Assembly: GCA_046760705.1 (NCBI GenBank)
Contig: JBHIER010000182.1
Coordinates: forward strand, 1-6,954
Source of the DNA: JBHIER01 sp046760705 [NCBI: bacterium]
GTDB lineage: Bacteria; JBHIER01; G020348925
DNA: 6,954 bases
Reading direction: 5' to 3'
The stretch's first letter is position 1. The number at the start of each line of letters is the position of its first letter. Below, piece by piece: positions 641 to 6,954 of this stretch. A program made the translations under genes and the position numbers. The notes beneath the pieces are model-generated. The model was not told the DNA's origin. It saw only the letters and a program-made list of their open reading frames with translations, and ran no database searches.

Positions 641-680
641 TCGCCTATCTGTTAACTGTTAGTGAAAGATGGAGTTTGCT

Positions 681-1250
681 ATGGTTGAGATTCGGATCCA
701 CGGTCGCGGTGGACAGGGTGCTGTCGTTGCCTCTCAGGTTTTGGCAACTGCTCTGTTTAAGGAGGACAAGTGTGTGCAGTCTTTCCCTACCTTTGGTGTG
801 GAGCGGCGAGGAGCGCCTGTGGCAGCGTTCACCCGGGTGGACGATCGGCAGATCAGATTGCGGTGCGAAATCTATGAGCCCGACCATCTGATGGTCCTCG
901 ATCCCACTTTGATTGAGGCGGTGGATATCACCTCTGGTCTGAAGGAGAACGGTTGGATCGTTATCAATAGTGACAAGCGGCCTGAGGAGTTTTGTCTGCC
1001 TCCGAAATTTCGGGTGGCCACCGTTGACGCTAACGCCATAGCGGTCAAACACAGGCTGGGGACACGGACCGCCCCCATCGTCAACACGGCCCTCTTAGGG
1101 GCTTTTTCAAGGGCAACTGGACTCGTGTCCATCGATGCCGTGGTTGAAGCCGTCAAAGAGGAGGTGCCCTTCAATCGAGAGGAGAACGCTGCGGCCTGCC
1201 GTGAGGCCTACGACGCGGTGAAGGGCCCTGAGGCCATTTTGAACGAGTGA
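681..1250 (+). CDS. porC: 2-oxoacid:acceptor oxidoreductase, gamma subunit
   Basis: This is the gamma component of a thiamine-dependent 2-oxoacid (probably pyruvate) oxidoreductase, which oxidatively decarboxylates a 2-oxoacid with CoA to acyl-CoA and CO2 in the cytoplasm. The 189-residue product opens with the family's glycine-rich signature HGRGGQG (7-13). Further on it has the ERRGAP motif typical of PorC/KorC proteins. Length and full-span character match stand-alone gamma subunits. I chose ATG 681 because GGAG (671-674) sits six bases before it and the protein then begins MVEIRIHG, as is usual; the in-frame ATG at 669 has no good binding site and would add four residues. It is the first gene of the operon, and its stop is 6 bases before the next start. 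It has no metal-binding cysteine motif, as expected for gamma. Substrate identity is inferred only. Confidence 0.93.
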   Translation: MVEIRIHGRGGQGAVVASQVLATALFKEDKCVQSFPTFGVERRGAPVAAFTRVDDRQIRLRCEIYEPDHLMVLDPTLIEAVDITSGLKENGWIVINSDKRPEEFCLPPKFRVATVDANAIAVKHRLGTRTAPIVNTALLGAFSRATGLVSIDAVVEAVKEEVPFNREENAAACREAYDAVKGPEAILNE

Positions 1251-1256
1251 GGAGAG

Positions 1257-3041
1257 ATGAAAAAGCGGCATGATCTGTCGGAGGAGATCATCACCTTCGC
1301 ATCTGAGAAGGTGATGCCGCCCCTGGCCATATCCCTGGGAAGTATGCGCTGGAACAAGACAGGGACCTGGCGTTACATTCGGCCGATATACGAGAACAAA
1401 ACCCCTCCTTGTGACGAGGCCTGTCCGGCTGGGGAGGATGTGGAGGGGGTCCAATACTTGTGCGGGCAGGGAAAATTTGAGGACGCCTGGAGATTGATCC
1501 TGGAGGAGAACCCCTTTCCTTCGGTTATGGGGCGGGTGTGCTCCCATCCTTGCGAGGAGGCTTGCAATCGCGATCAGTTCGACCAGGCCATCTCTATTCA
1601 CTCCGTGGAGCGCTTCGTCGGAGACTATGGCCTGGAACACGAAATGGTTCCGCCGAGGGGCGCGCCGAGGGGCGCGCCCAGGGGGAGAAAGGAGAAGGTA
1701 GCCGTAGTGGGTTCCGGGCCCGCCGGTCTGGCCTGCGCCTATCATCTGGTTCGAACGGGATACAGAACGTTGGTTCTGGAGGCCCACCCTGTGGCCGGCG
1801 GCATCCTGCGCGTTGGCATTCCCCAGTATCGGCTGCCCAAGGATGTGCTGGAGGCTGAAATTGAACGTATAAAAGACCTGGGGGTCGACATACAGACAAA
1901 CAGCCCAGTGGACCACGACGTCTTGAGAAAGGATTTGAAGGGGTTCGATGCCATCTTTATAGCCACTGGTGCCCACCGGAGCCGGAAATTGAATGTTCCT
2001 GGAGAGCACGCCCAGGGGGTTATGTCAGGACTTCAGTTCCTGATCGATCTCAATTTAGCAAGGAAGGTGGAGATTGGAAAGAAAGTGGCTGTCATTGGTG
2101 GCGGGAACACGGCCATGGATGCGGCCCGATCGGCTCTCAGATTGGGATCCGAAGTGGTGGTCGTCTACCGGCGCTCTCGGGCTGAGATGCCGGCCATCCC
2201 CTCTGAGGTGGAGGAGGCTCGGCGCGAGGGAATCCCCATCCATTTCTTGGCCGCCCCTGTTCGTGTCATCGCTGAGCACGGACGAGTGACAAAGATGGAG
2301 TGCGTCAGGATGAGACTGGGCGAGCCGGATTCGAGCGGCCGGCGACGGCCGGTGCCCATCGAAGGGTCTAACTTCACCATGGATGTCGATACCATCTTGT
2401 CCGCAATCGGTGAATCACCAGATCTCTCCTTTCTTTCCGAGGATATCAATACAGTGGGTGGGTCCATTGCCACCGATGGTTTCGGAAAGACGAGCAGAGA
2501 AGGGGTCTTTGCCGGCGGCGATGTGGTCGATCAGCCGCGCACCGTGGCCCATGCCATCGGTTCGGGGAAGATGGCCGCCGTGGCTATTGACACCTTTCTG
2601 CGCGGCAAAGGCATCGAGGCTGCCATCGATACTGTGAAAATCGGCCATAGAGGGTCCATCTCCATGGAGAGGTATCTGCGCGGAGAAATCCGCTTCAACG
2701 GCTCAAAGGTGGTGGGGTTTGAGGACATCAATCTGGCCTATTTTGAGCCCAAGGATCGGGTGGCCCTACCCAGAGAGAGCATCGCAGAGTCAAAGCGGTC
2801 CTTTGTCGAAGTCAACTTAGGTCTGAGTGAGGAGGCGGTCTTGACCGAATCTGACCGCTGCTTCAACTGTGGCGTGTGCAACATGTGCGACAACTGCTGG
2901 GTCTTCTGTCCTGATATCAGCATCTGGCGCAAAAAGGAGGGGTTTGGCTACGACATCGACTACGACCATTGTAAGGGCTGCGGAATCTGTGTCGAAGAGT
3001 GTCCCAGGGAAGCGATGTCCATGGAGGATGAAGCACGATGA
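1257..3041 (+). CDS. Fused GltD-like FAD/NAD(P)H oxidoreductase and 2x[4Fe-4S] delta subunit
   Basis: This 594-residue protein joins two modules. Residues about 45-125 form the iron-sulfur helical domain of glutamate-synthase small-subunit (GltD) type, with C52, C56, C95, C99 and C103. Residues 148-470 form a two-dinucleotide-binding flavoprotein: FAD motif GSGPAG (152-157), NAD(P) motif GGGNTA (281-286), a YRR...MP stretch that in GltD relatives goes with NADPH, and a late FAGGD motif for FAD. The C-terminus is a PorD-like ferredoxin domain with one cluster in the cysteine-rich run 535-551 and a second at C572-x2-C575-x2-C578-x3-C582-P. It probably carries electrons between the oxidoreductase core and NAD(P)+/NAD(P)H. 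AGGAG (1250-1254) is only two bases from the ATG, so initiation may be coupled to the gene before. A Pro-Arg-Gly-Ala repeat linker (133-143) joins the first two domains. The GltD first CxxC pair is missing. Domain calls are firm; electron direction and cofactor are inferred. Confidence 0.92.
   Translation: MKKRHDLSEEIITFASEKVMPPLAISLGSMRWNKTGTWRYIRPIYENKTPPCDEACPAGEDVEGVQYLCGQGKFEDAWRLILEENPFPSVMGRVCSHPCEEACNRDQFDQAISIHSVERFVGDYGLEHEMVPPRGAPRGAPRGRKEKVAVVGSGPAGLACAYHLVRTGYRTLVLEAHPVAGGILRVGIPQYRLPKDVLEAEIERIKDLGVDIQTNSPVDHDVLRKDLKGFDAIFIATGAHRSRKLNVPGEHAQGVMSGLQFLIDLNLARKVEIGKKVAVIGGGNTAMDAARSALRLGSEVVVVYRRSRAEMPAIPSEVEEARREGIPIHFLAAPVRVIAEHGRVTKMECVRMRLGEPDSSGRRRPVPIEGSNFTMDVDTILSAIGESPDLSFLSEDINTVGGSIATDGFGKTSREGVFAGGDVVDQPRTVAHAIGSGKMAAVAIDTFLRGKGIEAAIDTVKIGHRGSISMERYLRGEIRFNGSKVVGFEDINLAYFEPKDRVALPRESIAESKRSFVEVNLGLSEEAVLTESDRCFNCGVCNMCDNCWVFCPDISIWRKKEGFGYDIDYDHCKGCGICVEECPREAMSMEDEAR
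1653..1684 (+). repeat. 12-bp in-frame tandem repeat in interdomain linker
   Basis: CCGAGGGGCGCG occurs twice in direct tandem (1653-1664 and 1665-1676), followed by a diverged partial copy (1677-1684). It encodes P-R-G-A, P-R-G-A, P-R-G at residues 133-143. This lies between the N-terminal iron-sulfur domain and the FAD-binding fold, where length changes should be tolerated. The in-frame 12-bp unit suggests expansion by replication slippage. Two GGCGCGCC palindromes fall inside the array. Confidence 0.85.
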
Positions 3042-4192
3042 AGAAGGTGATCACAGGCAACTACGCTGTCTCTTACGGTGTGATGGTCTCTCGGGCCCAG
3101 GTCATCTCGGCCTATCCCATCACACCTCAGACGCAGATTGTGGAGCTGCTTTCGGAATTGTGCGCCGACGGCCGATTGGAGGCCAAATTTATTAAGGTCG
3201 AATCGGAACATTCGGCCATGGCCAGTTGCATTGGGGCCTCAGCCACCGGGGCTCGAGCTTTCACGGCCACCTCAGCCCAGGGTCTGGCCCTCATGCACGA
3301 GCTCCTCCACTGGGCCGCCCTGGGGAGACTGCCCATCGTTCTGGCCAATGTGAACCGGGCCATGGCCCCGGGCTGGTCCATTTGGACCGATCAAAACGAT
3401 AGCCTGTCTCAAAGAGACACGGGGTGGCTGCAGTTTTATTGCGAGAGCAATCAAGAGGTTCTCGATACCATCATCCAGGCCTTCAAGATCTCGGAGCAGG
3501 TGCTGCTGCCGACCATGCTGGTCTTGGACGCCTTCTTCCTCTCCCATACCTCGGAACCTGTGGATATCCCCGACGTAGAGACGGTGGACGCCTATCTGCC
3601 GAGGTATCAAGCCCAATACAGACTGAACGTCAAAAATCCTTATACTTTTGGCGGTTTAACTGGGCCAGATCACTATTTTGAGCTGCGGTATAAGATGCAG
3701 CAGGCCATGGAGGAGGCGGTGGCGGTGGCCCGGGGGGCTGATGAGGAGTTTGATCGCATCTTCGGCCGAAGCTACGGGTTGGTGGACCGCTACCAGAGCG
3801 ATGGTGCCGATCTGCTCTTAGTGGTCTCCGGCACCTTGGCCAGCACGGCCAGAGAGGCCGTCGACCGATTGCGGTCCGAAGGGAAGAAGGTGGGCATGTT
3901 GAAGATGAGAATGTTTCGCCCCTTTCCTCTTGAGGAGTTTCGGGAGGCGGTGAAGGAAGCCAGAAAACTGGCGGTGGTCGATCGGAACATCTGTGTGGGG
4001 TTCAGCGGCATATTTTATCAAGAGGTCAGTTCGGCCCTGTACGGTCACCGAGACGATCTGCCGATCTTCGGATTCGTGACCGGTCTCGGCGGTCGCGATG
4101 TGACACCGGAGGTCATCCGTGAGATTGTTGAGCATGCTGACGCTCTTGATCACCCTGAGAAGCAGATCATTTGGATCGGACTGAAGCGATGA
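3038..4192 (+). CDS. porA: 2-oxoacid:acceptor oxidoreductase, alpha subunit
   Basis: The 384-residue alpha subunit supplies the pyrimidine-side thiamine diphosphate domain and substrate pocket of the 2-oxoacid oxidoreductase. Family marks are GNYAVSYG (7-14), SAYPITPQT (24-32), VESEHSAM (54-61, with E55 the likely cofactor-activating glutamate), TSAQGL (78-83), NRAMAPGWSIW (106-116) and SQRDTGW (124-130). Residues from about 255 form the second conserved domain, with VVSGTLASTAREAVD and MRMFRPFP motifs. Length is normal for the family. The start overlaps the previous stop as ATGA (3038-3041), with GGAGG (3023-3027) ten bases upstream, indicating translational coupling. The DSLSQRDTGW region resembles pyruvate-type enzymes more than 2-oxoglutarate or branched-chain ones, but sequence alone does not settle the substrate. 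R107 may be the arginine that contacts the substrate carboxylate; this is from memory of characterised enzymes. Confidence 0.95.
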   Translation: MKKVITGNYAVSYGVMVSRAQVISAYPITPQTQIVELLSELCADGRLEAKFIKVESEHSAMASCIGASATGARAFTATSAQGLALMHELLHWAALGRLPIVLANVNRAMAPGWSIWTDQNDSLSQRDTGWLQFYCESNQEVLDTIIQAFKISEQVLLPTMLVLDAFFLSHTSEPVDIPDVETVDAYLPRYQAQYRLNVKNPYTFGGLTGPDHYFELRYKMQQAMEEAVAVARGADEEFDRIFGRSYGLVDRYQSDGADLLLVVSGTLASTAREAVDRLRSEGKKVGMLKMRMFRPFPLEEFREAVKEARKLAVVDRNICVGFSGIFYQEVSSALYGHRDDLPIFGFVTGLGGRDVTPEVIREIVEHADALDHPEKQIIWIGLKR

Positions 4193-5076
4193 GGTTTCAT
4201 ATTCCAGAGCAGGAACTGCTGGGCTCGGGCCATCTGGCCTGTCCGGGTTGCGGGGCAGCCCAGTCGATGCGTTACACGTTGAAGGCCCTGGGCGAGAAGA
4301 CGATCATCGTTCTGCCTGCCTGCTGTTGGTCGATCATCGCCGGCCCTTTCCCCTACTCCTCGCTGCAGGTGCCCTTATATCACACCGCTTTCGAGACGGC
4401 CGGCGCAGCCGCTTCGGGAATCAAGGCCGGACTGCACATCCAGGGGGATACCGAGACGAACGTCTTAGCCTGGGCCGGCGATGGGGGCACCTTCGACATC
4501 GGGATTCAGGCCCTCTCCGGCGCCGCCGAGAGAAACGACGACATCATCTATGTCTGTTACGATAACGAAGCCTATATGAACACCGGAATTCAGCGGAGCT
4601 CGGCCACTCCCTGGGGGGCCTGGACGACAACAACTCCTGTGGGCCACTTCAAGGACCGTCCCAAAAAGGACATCATGATGGTCATGGCTGCTCATAAGAT
4701 CCCGTACGCCGCCACAGCCTCGGTGGCCTTTCCTGACGACCTGATAGCTAAGGTGAAAAAGGCCAAGGAAATCCGTGGGACCCGGTTCCTGCACATTTTT
4801 TCTCCATGCCCTCCAGGATGGAAGATACCGTCTGAGATCGCCATTCGGATGGCACGCTTGGCAGTGGAGACGAGGGTCTTTCCCCTTTACGAGATAGAGG
4901 ACGGGGAGAGATATATTTTGAACAGACAATCCAACAGGACCCCGGTTGTCGAATACCTCAAACAGCAGGGGCGATTCAAACATCTGACCAAAAGCCAGAT
5001 GGAGGCCATCCAGAAAAATGTGGACAGAGAGTGGGAGAAGTTGCTCAACAGGGTGGAAAGAAGCCCACAGAGGTGA
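4189..5076 (+). CDS. porB: 2-oxoacid:acceptor oxidoreductase, beta subunit (TPP and [4Fe-4S])
   Basis: The 295-residue beta subunit carries the diphosphate-side thiamine site and the cluster nearest to it. The thiamine diphosphate/Mg motif runs from GDG (97-99) to the DNEAYMNTG stretch (125-133). Cysteines C18 and C21 in CPGCG, C45 or C46 in ACCW, and C207 in SPCPPGW match the four [4Fe-4S] ligands of stand-alone PorB proteins. Length is normal. I chose ATG 4189, which overlaps the alpha stop as ATGA (4189-4192); an in-frame TTG at 4171 would add six residues inside the alpha gene and is less likely. There is only a weak binding site, so translation is probably coupled to alpha. It is the last subunit gene of the operon; no terminator is visible after it. 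The C-terminal tail beyond about residue 235, with a charged and partly helical character, is typical of the family. Confidence 0.95.
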   Translation: MRFHIPEQELLGSGHLACPGCGAAQSMRYTLKALGEKTIIVLPACCWSIIAGPFPYSSLQVPLYHTAFETAGAAASGIKAGLHIQGDTETNVLAWAGDGGTFDIGIQALSGAAERNDDIIYVCYDNEAYMNTGIQRSSATPWGAWTTTTPVGHFKDRPKKDIMMVMAAHKIPYAATASVAFPDDLIAKVKKAKEIRGTRFLHIFSPCPPGWKIPSEIAIRMARLAVETRVFPLYEIEDGERYILNRQSNRTPVVEYLKQQGRFKHLTKSQMEAIQKNVDREWEKLLNRVERSPQR

Positions 5077-5212: not shown

Positions 5213-5248
5213 ATGAGTTCGATTCATAATATTTTACGGGAAATATTA
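5199..5248 (+). repeat. AT-rich inverted repeats flanking a start codon
   Basis: AAATATTT (5199-5206) lies just after the GAGAGGA ribosome binding site. TAATATTT (5227-5234) and AAATATTA (5241-5248) form a perfect 8-bp stem with a 6-base loop inside the first codons of the radical SAM gene. AAATATT (5199-5205) can instead pair with AATATTT (5228-5234), looping out the ATG at 5213, so two folds compete. This could tune translation initiation; that is inference. Confidence 0.45.
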
Positions 5249-6954
5249 CCTACCGTTATCAGACCCAGCAGGTACACTGGTACCGAACTCAACGTTGTTC
5301 AAAAAGACCATGCTACTGTCGATGTGAAGGTGGCTTTAGCCTTCCCTGACACGTATGAATTGGGGATGTCCTATCTCGGTTTCGCCATTCTCTATCACCT
5401 CCTGAACCGTCGGGAGGATGTTCTTGCTGAACGGGTCTATGCTCCCTGGGTGGATATGGAGGAGCGGATGCGGCAGCGGGGGGTTCCCCTCTTCGCCCTT
5501 GAGTCAAAAAAACCTTTGCGGGACTTTGACGTTGTGGCTTTCACCCTTCCCCACGAGCTCTGTTACACCAACATCCTGAACATGCTCGAGCTGGCGGCCA
5601 TTCCCCTGAAAAGTGAGGAGAGAAACGGAGACCATCCGCTCATCATTGGTGGTGGAATGGGTGCTTTCAATCCCGAGCCGTTGGCCGAGTTTGTGGATGC
5701 TTTTGTCGTCGGCGATGGTGAGGAGGTGGTGCTTGAGATCGTGGACACGGTCAAAACCCACAGGGGCTCACCTCGGCAGCAGATGTTGCAGGCGCTCTCG
5801 GAGCTGAAGGGAGTATATGTGCCCTCTTTTTATGCGGCCGATTATGATCACGGTGCTTTCGAGGGTTTGGTTCCCGTCGACCCCTCCCTTCCGAGCACGA
5901 TCGAATCTCGGACGGTGAAGACTTTGGCCGTCGACAATTATCCCCCCAAGCCGCTCGTCCCCTTCACCGAGATCGAGCACGATCGCTTGACCATAGAGAT
6001 CATGAGGGGGTGTTCGAGAGGGTGTCGGTTCTGCAATGCCAGCGTGCTCTATCATCCTCTGCGGCAGCGCCCGGTAGAGGAGATCCTGAGCCAGGCCGAA
6101 TCCGGGATCGCCAGCACGGGATATGACGAGATTTCCCTGCTCTCCCTATCGGCCACCGATTATTCAGCCTTGGAGGAGTTGATAGAAGCTCTCAATCGGA
6201 GGCTGGCCCAGAGAAGGGTGGCCATTGCTCTCCCGTCCCTGCGACCCGAGACCTTTTCCAAGGGTTTGGCCAAAGCTGTGCAGACTGTCCGTAAAAGCGG
6301 CTTGACTTTTGCTCCTGAGGCCGGAACTGATAGGCTGCGTCGGGTTATCAAAAAGAGCATCAGCGACGAGGATCTGCTCAGGGCCATTGAAATCGCCTAC
6401 GAGGGCGGGTGGAAGGTGATCAAACTCTATTTCATGATTGGCTTGCCCACAGAACAGCAGAAAGATATCGAGGCCATCGCTCATCTGGTTCGGGAAGCTG
6501 TACAATTGGGAAAGGGTTACGGTGGTGACAAGCGCGTCAACGTTGCCATTTCGCCCTTTTCACCAAAGGCTCACACGCCTTTCCAGTGGGCGGCCCAGGA
6601 GCAGATGGAGTCACTCCGAGAGAAGTCCACCTATCTGCGGGAGCGACTTCGGCACAGAAGGATTAGGCTCAAGTGGCGACCTCCGGAGGTCTCCTTTATT
6701 GAGAGCATCTTTGCTCGGGGAGACCGGCGACTTTCGGAAGTGCTGTCAACAGCCAAGCAGATGGGCTGCCGGTTTGACGGCTGGTCCGATCTCTTCTCCT
6801 ATACTCTTTGGCAGAGGGCGTTTGAAATTTCCAAAACGGATCCGCACCCATACACCTGCCGGCGAAGCCTCGACGAGCCTCTCCCCTGGGAGCACATTGT
6901 TGTGGGCATCTCAAAGGGCGCGCTGGCAAGGGAATGGCTCCGCTCTCAGGAGAG
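5213..6954 (+). CDS. Radical SAM protein, uncharacterised TIGR03960-like family (3' truncated by window)
   Basis: The frame is open from ATG 5213 to the window edge (580 codons and two bases), so the C-terminus is missing. The radical SAM cluster motif is C267-x3-C271-x2-C274 (MRGCSRGCRFC), which binds the [4Fe-4S] that cleaves S-adenosylmethionine. Other family marks are the early FPDTYELGMSYLG stretch, APWVDMEERM, YTNILNML, GGGMGAFNPEPLAEF (146-160), GDGEE (167-171), PEAGTDRLRR (368-377), MIGLP (408-412) and DEPLPWEHI near the end. The N-terminal 200 residues resemble the cobalamin-binding Rossmann fold of B12-type radical SAM proteins, but I see no DxHxxG cobalamin ligand motif. Family members run about 600 residues and are often followed by or fused to a DUF2344 protein, next to ribonuclease E/G and ribosomal protein L21/L27 genes. 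The reaction is unknown. GAGAGGA (5193-5199) is 13 bases from the ATG, longer than usual. Confidence 0.9.
   Translation, partial: MSSIHNILREILPTVIRPSRYTGTELNVVQKDHATVDVKVALAFPDTYELGMSYLGFAILYHLLNRREDVLAERVYAPWVDMEERMRQRGVPLFALESKKPLRDFDVVAFTLPHELCYTNILNMLELAAIPLKSEERNGDHPLIIGGGMGAFNPEPLAEFVDAFVVGDGEEVVLEIVDTVKTHRGSPRQQMLQALSELKGVYVPSFYAADYDHGAFEGLVPVDPSLPSTIESRTVKTLAVDNYPPKPLVPFTEIEHDRLTIEIMRGCSRGCRFCNASVLYHPLRQRPVEEILSQAESGIASTGYDEISLLSLSATDYSALEELIEALNRRLAQRRVAIALPSLRPETFSKGLAKAVQTVRKSGLTFAPEAGTDRLRRVIKKSISDEDLLRAIEIAYEGGWKVIKLYFMIGLPTEQQKDIEAIAHLVREAVQLGKGYGGDKRVNVAISPFSPKAHTPFQWAAQEQMESLREKSTYLRERLRHRRIRLKWRPPEVSFIESIFARGDRRLSEVLSTAKQMGCRFDGWSDLFSYTLWQRAFEISKTDPHPYTCRRSLDEPLPWEHIVVGISKGALAREWLRSQE

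Follow-up and report, generated by a model that had tools for sequence, protein, structure and literature searches.

A permuted GltD-like module predicted to lie nested in the delta subunit of a bacterial 2-oxoacid oxidoreductase

In this study we describe a 2-oxoacid oxidoreductase operon in a window of 6,954 nucleotides (the whole stretch of DNA that was analysed, from contig JBHIER010000182.1) of the bacterium JBHIER01 sp046760705. Its parts are known and its build is a variant of a known module, real and conserved: as read from the sequence, a permuted GltD module lies nested within PorD, in a protein of 594 residues that takes the delta position of a POR/VOR-type enzyme. We think it probable that the four gene products form a CoA-acylating 2-oxoacid:NADP+ oxidoreductase, most likely acting on branched-chain 2-oxoacids, with an NADP reductase held in cis in the delta subunit.

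Anatomy of the interrupted delta subunit

The genes for the gamma subunit, the 594-aa flavo-Fe/S protein, the alpha subunit and the beta subunit are intact open reading frames (ORFs) on the + strand, tightly spaced or overlapping, and together they encode the alpha, beta, gamma and delta parts of a Por/Vor heterotetramer-type 2-oxoacid:acceptor oxidoreductase. The PorC-type gamma (193 aa, 669..1250) matches PF01558 (E=8.8e-38) and TIGR02175 (207.7 bits, cut-off 81.1); it sits outside the range 1257-5076 first stated for the operon. The PorA-type alpha (384 aa, 3038..4192) matches PF01855, PF17147 and 9bt4_B (E=2.1e-105), and the VorB/PorB-type beta (295 aa, 4189..5076; PF02775), whose ATG start at 4189 overlaps the alpha stop, reaches 429.2 bits on PRK11864 (cut-off 405). 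The 594-aa protein (1257..3041) is a full-length member of NF009410/PRK12771 (581.8 bits over residues 33-592, cut-off 516), a model that in our background control had matches in 14/14 control genomes and exceeded its cut-off in 0/14. PRK12771, titled "NAD(P)-binding protein", names no function, and it also takes NifJ-linked and DsrL-2-like proteins; the operon-type relative L110 scores 513.9, just under the cut-off. Pfam finds Fer4_20 (PF14691, residues 48-128), Pyr_redox_2 (PF07992, 147-437) and Fer4 (566-587), the GltD-like body at residues 48-452 (1398..2612, + strand) consisting of a Fer4_20 remainder followed by FAD and NAD(P) Rossmann domains. A first-pass annotation had described intact gamma, alpha and beta genes and a 594-residue GltD-like flavoprotein with two C-terminal [4Fe-4S] motifs, and Pfam and NCBIfam agree with that description.

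The two ends of the protein belong to PorD. The isolated first 50 residues match four NCBIfam models at E<=1, every one of them a delta subunit; the best match (PorD_Arch, E=2.5e-4) aligns residues 27-47 (LGSMRWNKTGTWRYIRPIYEN, 1335..1397, + strand) to model positions 11-31, and T35, G36, W38, R39 and P43 of this arm are invariant in the six rows of our alignment A1. At the other end, residues 541-590 (2877..3026, + strand) form a dicluster core with two [4Fe-4S] motifs, which matches the PorD chain of the solved enzyme, 9bt4_G, and scores 66.8 bits on TIGR02179 when the whole protein is the query (cut-off 60.05), so that core and N-terminal arm place the protein in the PorD/KorD family. When the insert is removed, one continuous PorD alignment results, with 78.7 bits on PorD_Arch vs 62.9 for the core alone and 75.2 bits on TIGR02179 vs 65.4, and positions 28-113 of the arm-plus-core query align to 9bt4_G 11-81. 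The PorCDAB/VorCDAB 2-oxoacid:ferredoxin oxidoreductase (9bt4) shares alpha, beta, gamma and both delta ends with the window, whereas the window delta is interrupted by the permuted GltD module. From these alignments the GltD-like module is inserted between the PorD arm and the PorD core, and "inserted into delta" describes it better than "fused". The fusion to delta proposed in the first-pass annotation thus holds as to the single ORF but not as to the anatomy, which includes the arm at 27-47 and a permuted N-terminus at 492-539; both were absent from it, as were two further GltD-type cluster sites.

The arm TG.WR..RP is present in 4/5 stand-alone PorD proteins of POR operons in other genomes (L041 reads TGSFANEVP). 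PorD models match the N-termini of L001, L002, L108 and L110, all of the operon type, and of L116, where the fusion follows alpha; they gave no match to those of L035 (NifJ-linked), L119 (DsrL-2-like), the Ilyobacter GltA, the E. coli GltD and the KorC-like protein of Aromatoleum EbN1. The arm of Kor-linked L114 is worn (YWTQLRPVY), and in two Stn-type rows no arm was seen as judged by eye, without a PorD-model run.

The inserted module is itself rearranged. Residues 492-539 (2730..2873, + strand), which end in RCFNCG and so carry the RCxxCG motif, align with the N-termini of two GltA proteins and one GltD; in Smith-Waterman comparisons with these three classical N-termini 0, 1 and 0 of 1000 shuffles scored equally well, statistics that cover the window protein only. 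PRK12771, a model of 566 positions, is also matched near its C-terminus by N-terminal pieces of GltA (471-511, E=1.7e-7) and GltD (464-513, E=5e-6). The classical GltD/GltA controls are not permuted, the RCxxC pair preceding the first conserved Cys in 3/3, whereas in the 594-aa protein the first Cys is C52 and RCxxC does not lie upstream of it. The best site of the three classical N-termini falls at 0.81-0.89 of the length in 34/34 non-classical rows (scores 37 to 99), and among 73 homologues (some loci overlapping, one dropped) RCxxC lies after the body in 70, before it in none and in neither place in three. By this evidence the GltD-like module is circularly permuted and its classical N-terminus relocated beside the PorD core. 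By these counts Stn-type proteins have the permutation too. We met no description of the nesting or the permutation in the literature, in searches that were aimed at neither. A 12-bp tandem repeat (2.8 copies, 1651-1684) encodes in-frame APRG repeats that separate the cluster domain from the FAD domain; the remaining five rows of alignment A1 show none.

Putative electron path and relation to known flavoproteins

The residue sets C541/C544/C547/C582, C572/C575/C578/C551, C56/C95/C99/E118 and C52/C103/C535/C538 are all invariant in the six rows. We infer that C541/C544/C547 with C582 and C572/C575/C578 with C551 bind the two PorD clusters, that C56/C95/C99/E118 are the ligands of the proximal GltD cluster and that C52/C103/C535/C538 are those of the distal one; C538 and C541, with which the PorD cysteines begin, are three residues apart. 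In NfnB, Cys39 and Cys42 are ligands of the distal cluster (PMC7596348). NfnB, StnC and GltD share the FAD/NADP fold and the cluster ligand residues with our protein. Residue 118, which aligns with NfnB Glu117 and StnC K170, is Glu in 34/36 rows and Lys in two Stn-type rows, and R192 aligns with StnC R239 and NfnB R201; StnC differs by its Lys for Glu (PMC10482914) and by other C-terminal domains.

Residues 304-306 (2166..2174, + strand) read YRR, the motif by which NfnB binds the phosphate group of NADP and which is the mark of DsrL-2, an enzyme active with NADP(H) only (PMC7596348); by alignment it predicts NADP(H) here. It occurs in 33/36 rows, the exceptions being L136 (SLT), L137 (SLL) and L037 (FVS); for L136 and L137, both window-type operons, a natural switch to NAD(H) is predicted. 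Direct coupling to NAD(P) had been proposed in the first-pass annotation. The anatomy supports it and YRR narrows it to NADP(H), so that NADP coupling of the operon enzyme is likely.

In the mechanism we propose, a 2-oxoacid would be decarboxylated at thiamine pyrophosphate by alpha, beta and gamma, and the cluster of beta would hand the electrons on to the pair of PorD clusters. From there they might reach the distal GltD-type cluster (C52, C103 and the relocated C535 and C538), then the proximal cluster (C56, C95, C99, E118), FAD and finally NADP+. The PorD arm would dock the entire module as delta subunit and would therefore put the NADP reductase into the complex in cis.

There is a close likeness to DsrL, which has the same domain order of GltD-like clusters, FAD/NAD(P) domains, a linker of ~100 aa and a C-terminal two-cluster ferredoxin (PMC7596348), and in particular to DsrL-2, with which the protein shares YRR. 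However, the partner of DsrL is DsrAB, whereas the 594-aa protein is encoded with a 2-oxoacid oxidoreductase; DsrL genes are described as belonging to organisms with dsrAB and as not immediately linked to POR genes (PMC7596348), whereas POR genes adjoin ours; and the TGxWR arm is absent from five DsrL-2-like rows. That label rests on dsrA/dsrB neighbours in 4/5 loci (L118 with a partial dsrB, 339.3 of 341.5 bits); at L120 the dsr neighbour test, on one ORF, gave no match. The tails of 3/3 DsrL-2-like proteins have PorD_Arch as best model after PRK12771, but the matches are weak (27, 24.7 and 32.2 bits; cut-off 120) and general ferredoxin models score nearly as well. In DsrL the part that leads up to the C-terminal ferredoxin has been treated as a flexible linker (PMC7596348); the permuted RCxxC may offer an alternative assignment for the "missing" distal-cluster ligands of DsrL-like proteins. 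The fusion is less novel than it was first taken to be, PRK12771 and DsrL sharing its protein architecture, and the DsrL paper of 2020 has a brief remark on such genes in linkage with those for pyruvate/ketoisovalerate oxidoreductases (PMC7596348). A dedicated study of POR-linked flavoprotein genes was not seen in the literature.

Other NADP-linked layouts can be compared. The 2-oxoglutarate:NADP+ oxidoreductase of Azoarcus evansii reportedly has its own NADP-linked flavo-Fe/S subunit of ~63 kDa, and an operon on an Aromatoleum EbN1 plasmid is of the FAD oxidoreductase-KorA-KorB type. Both differ from the window in their KorAB two-subunit core, and the EbN1 flavoprotein shows 30.6% identity, an N-terminus without the PorD arm and a tail for which rnfB, not PorD, is the best model.

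Recurrence and gene neighbourhoods

The order gamma-fusion-alpha-beta recurs across five phyla, in 13 genomes besides that of the window. A contig scan, which detects close relatives only, gave two, L001 (CP070758.1, Gemmatimonadota; 76% identity) and L002 (Chloroflexi MAG-37; 53%). By phylum, the order is present in 1/1 genome for that of G001, in 3/3 for that of G026 (one with two copies), in 1/1 for that of G033 and in 6/7 for that of G037, where G446 (L130/L137) has its alpha and gamma matches in two pieces. For Chloroflexota, the phylum of G002, it is found in at least 2/400 sampled genomes, a lower bound as three first-look candidates were scored per genome and 30 loci examined; matches at E<=1e-150 occur in 36/400 of these genomes (44 rows). 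Two of the 30 loci have the operon order, in five the fusion comes after a POR beta gene (alpha seen too in four; L138-L140, three of the five, read gamma-alpha-beta-fusion), one follows Kor-type genes, in seven the fusion precedes nifJ, and 15 have no 2-oxoacid oxidoreductase query match within short flanks, among them L075 (= L121), which adjoins dsrA and dsrB. Chance or mis-assembly can be excluded as a source of the fusion, because the same single-frame ORF with the same neighbours is conserved in L001, L002, L107-L113 and L126-L129.

In a tree of the alpha subunits (without L114, a very long row, and L137, whose alpha match is in two pieces) a 100/100 branch separates the 14 operon-type alphas from six canonical PorA and four fusion-after-alpha rows. 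W113 (window 3374-3376) is found in 14/14 operon-type alphas and 0/11 others, Q119 (3392-3394) in 14/14 and 3/11; both adjoin the NR motif, where the sequence in canonical alphas is mostly [AG]P[LI][NS]I..DH. The flavoprotein tree sets off the NifJ-linked rows by one branch and the DsrL-2-like rows by another. The operon type needs three changes on this tree, in which L110 is long and uncertain, and the well-supported branches are compatible with one origin.

The flavoprotein family has further company. The gene for the single-chain pyruvate oxidoreductase, nifJ, is its neighbour in L035, L037, L083, L084, L086, L087, L089, L092 and L093; Methylovirgula and Phenylobacterium plasmids carry the family beside nifJ, and in two plasmids a dihydroorotate dehydrogenase-like gene accompanies the pair. 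In L113 a single ORF of 787 aa (7942-10302), possibly a gamma-flavo-delta triple fusion, comprises gamma and the nested flavo-delta and is followed by alpha, beta and ilvE. A helix-turn-helix (HTH)-cupin protein is encoded just upstream of gamma in L109 (9949-10596) and L133 (6451-7047), and proteins resembling it by eye precede gamma in L112, L134, L135 and L136. Within the window, 234-431 encodes a Cys-rich 65-aa ORF (CPVC...CKCN) with no Pfam match and a 75% identical counterpart upstream of gamma in L001 (6945-7139). Downstream, 5213-6952, open at the window end, encodes a B12-binding radical SAM protein (TIGR03960, 700.5 bits, cut-off 462.3), whose gene also lies directly downstream of the operon in L001; we rejected a link with the operon, as the gene is present in L001 alone among the 14 relatives' loci, as far as the contigs reach. 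Scans of the window with Rfam (gathering threshold) and for tRNAs gave no match, nor did PADLOC at E<=1e-20 for the 594-aa protein.

Substrate, direction and wider meaning

Neighbouring genes and the beta subunit bear on the substrate. In L107 gamma comes after genes for a butyrate kinase (524.9 bits, cut-off 289.1) and a phosphobutyryltransferase-like protein, giving buk-ptb-gamma-fusion-alpha-beta, L002 has the same phosphobutyryltransferase-like gene upstream of the operon, and in L113 the branched-chain transaminase gene ilvE (370.3 bits, cut-off 279) follows beta. For the window beta, PRK11864, the 3-methyl-2-oxobutanoate-type VorB model, is the sole model above cut-off, and as a subfamily model it is no proof of substrate. 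Because of these neighbours and the VorB-type beta, the operon is suggestive of an oxidation of branched-chain 2-oxoacids to acyl-CoA, which would go on to yield acyl phosphate and ATP, while the electrons would end up in NADPH.

Several observations weigh against the enzyme as we picture it. The alpha subunit is above cut-off for no listed model and scores highest on the pyruvate synthase equivalog NF040682 (PorA), below its threshold (491.7 of 550), the ketoisovalerate model being lower (439.8); gamma is above cut-off for the general TIGR02175 only. The genes buk, ptb and ilvE occur in just 3/14 searched operon-type loci (several contigs being short), and no substrate-related neighbour was found beside the window's own operon among the window proteins scanned. 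SLT and SLL in place of YRR in two window-type relatives indicate that NADP(H) use is not universal. For the distal cluster of DsrL, Ser/Thr and Cys/Arg have been proposed as substitute ligands (PMC7596348). The cluster relay is unproved by homology, since the NADH oxidation of A. vinosum DsrL and its transfer to sulfite are independent of its clusters (PMC7596348). Finally, an AlphaFold2 prediction (mean pLDDT 33.4) was unusable as a model.

The same complex might run in reverse, using NADPH for a reductive carboxylation of acyl-CoA in 2-oxoacid synthesis, an option that the first-pass annotation had raised and that we consider unlikely, as the buk, ptb and ilvE neighbours favour oxidation. 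2-Oxoacid oxidoreductases are reversible, which speaks for it, but the acyl-CoA/2-oxoacid couple lies well below NADPH and carboxylation would be uphill without ferredoxin. Canonical PorD-type operons, present elsewhere in the genomes G001, G002, G026 and G037, could do the oxidative work, and NADPH, predicted by YRR, is the stronger reductant in vivo (PMC7596348); against this, buk and ptb beside two relatives point to the consumption of acyl-CoA. A three-way enzyme, in which FAD bifurcates or confurcates electrons among NADP(H), ferredoxin and the 2-oxoacid, would fit the NfnB-like ligand E118 and R192, both invariant in the six rows. It seems improbable to us, for the six window proteins scanned include no NfnA-like second flavin subunit such as that of the bifurcating transhydrogenase NfnAB, plain E. 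coli GltD has the Glu too, and StnC has the same arginine yet does not bifurcate (PMC10482914).

Equally improbable is a mere co-transcription, in which the flavoprotein would work on its own as an NADPH:acceptor enzyme and a separate PorD would serve alpha, beta and gamma. DsrL-type relatives do serve other partners (PMC7596348), and the canonical PorD genes of the four genomes named above could be such separate subunits; however, the window proteins scanned include no second delta, and the 594-aa protein has kept both PorD arm and core. PadEFGHI is a 2-oxoacid oxidoreductase with an NAD-linked flavoprotein, and a phenylglyoxylate:NAD+ oxidoreductase of this kind with fused subunits is the reading to which we give hardly any credence. 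The models of PadE, PadG and PadI give family-level matches, as does PadF with the arm-plus-core query, but the first three stay below cut-off (174.5 of 300, 310.1 of 700 and 247.8 of 700), and PadH, which belongs to another family, reaches 25.2 of the 475 bits of its cut-off with the orthologue in L001. PadF and PadH are moreover separate proteins, and the comparison with Pad drawn in the first-pass annotation fails as a statement of kinship.

As a rule, the low-potential oxidation of 2-oxoacids depends on ferredoxin. It might be possible, and we put this forward tentatively and with more doubt than the oxidoreductase itself, that insertion of a permuted GltD NADP module into PorD gave a ferredoxin-independent, NADP-linked, acyl-CoA-forming enzyme and that DsrL descends from such a delta, having lost the arm and kept the PorD-like tail. 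The descent is suggested because DsrL-2-like tails are PorD-like and because the arm is present in window-type and L116-type proteins and absent in DsrL-2-like rows. If this were true, 2-oxoacid metabolism would have lent part of dissimilatory sulfur metabolism its NAD(P)H port. A module that connects the catalytic core directly with NADP+ would alter how genome-based models of the carriers account for energy and redox. The nested, permuted architecture provides a concrete rule by which such enzymes can be recognized and hints at the origin of DsrL, and several bacterial groups with sparse sampling share the operon build.

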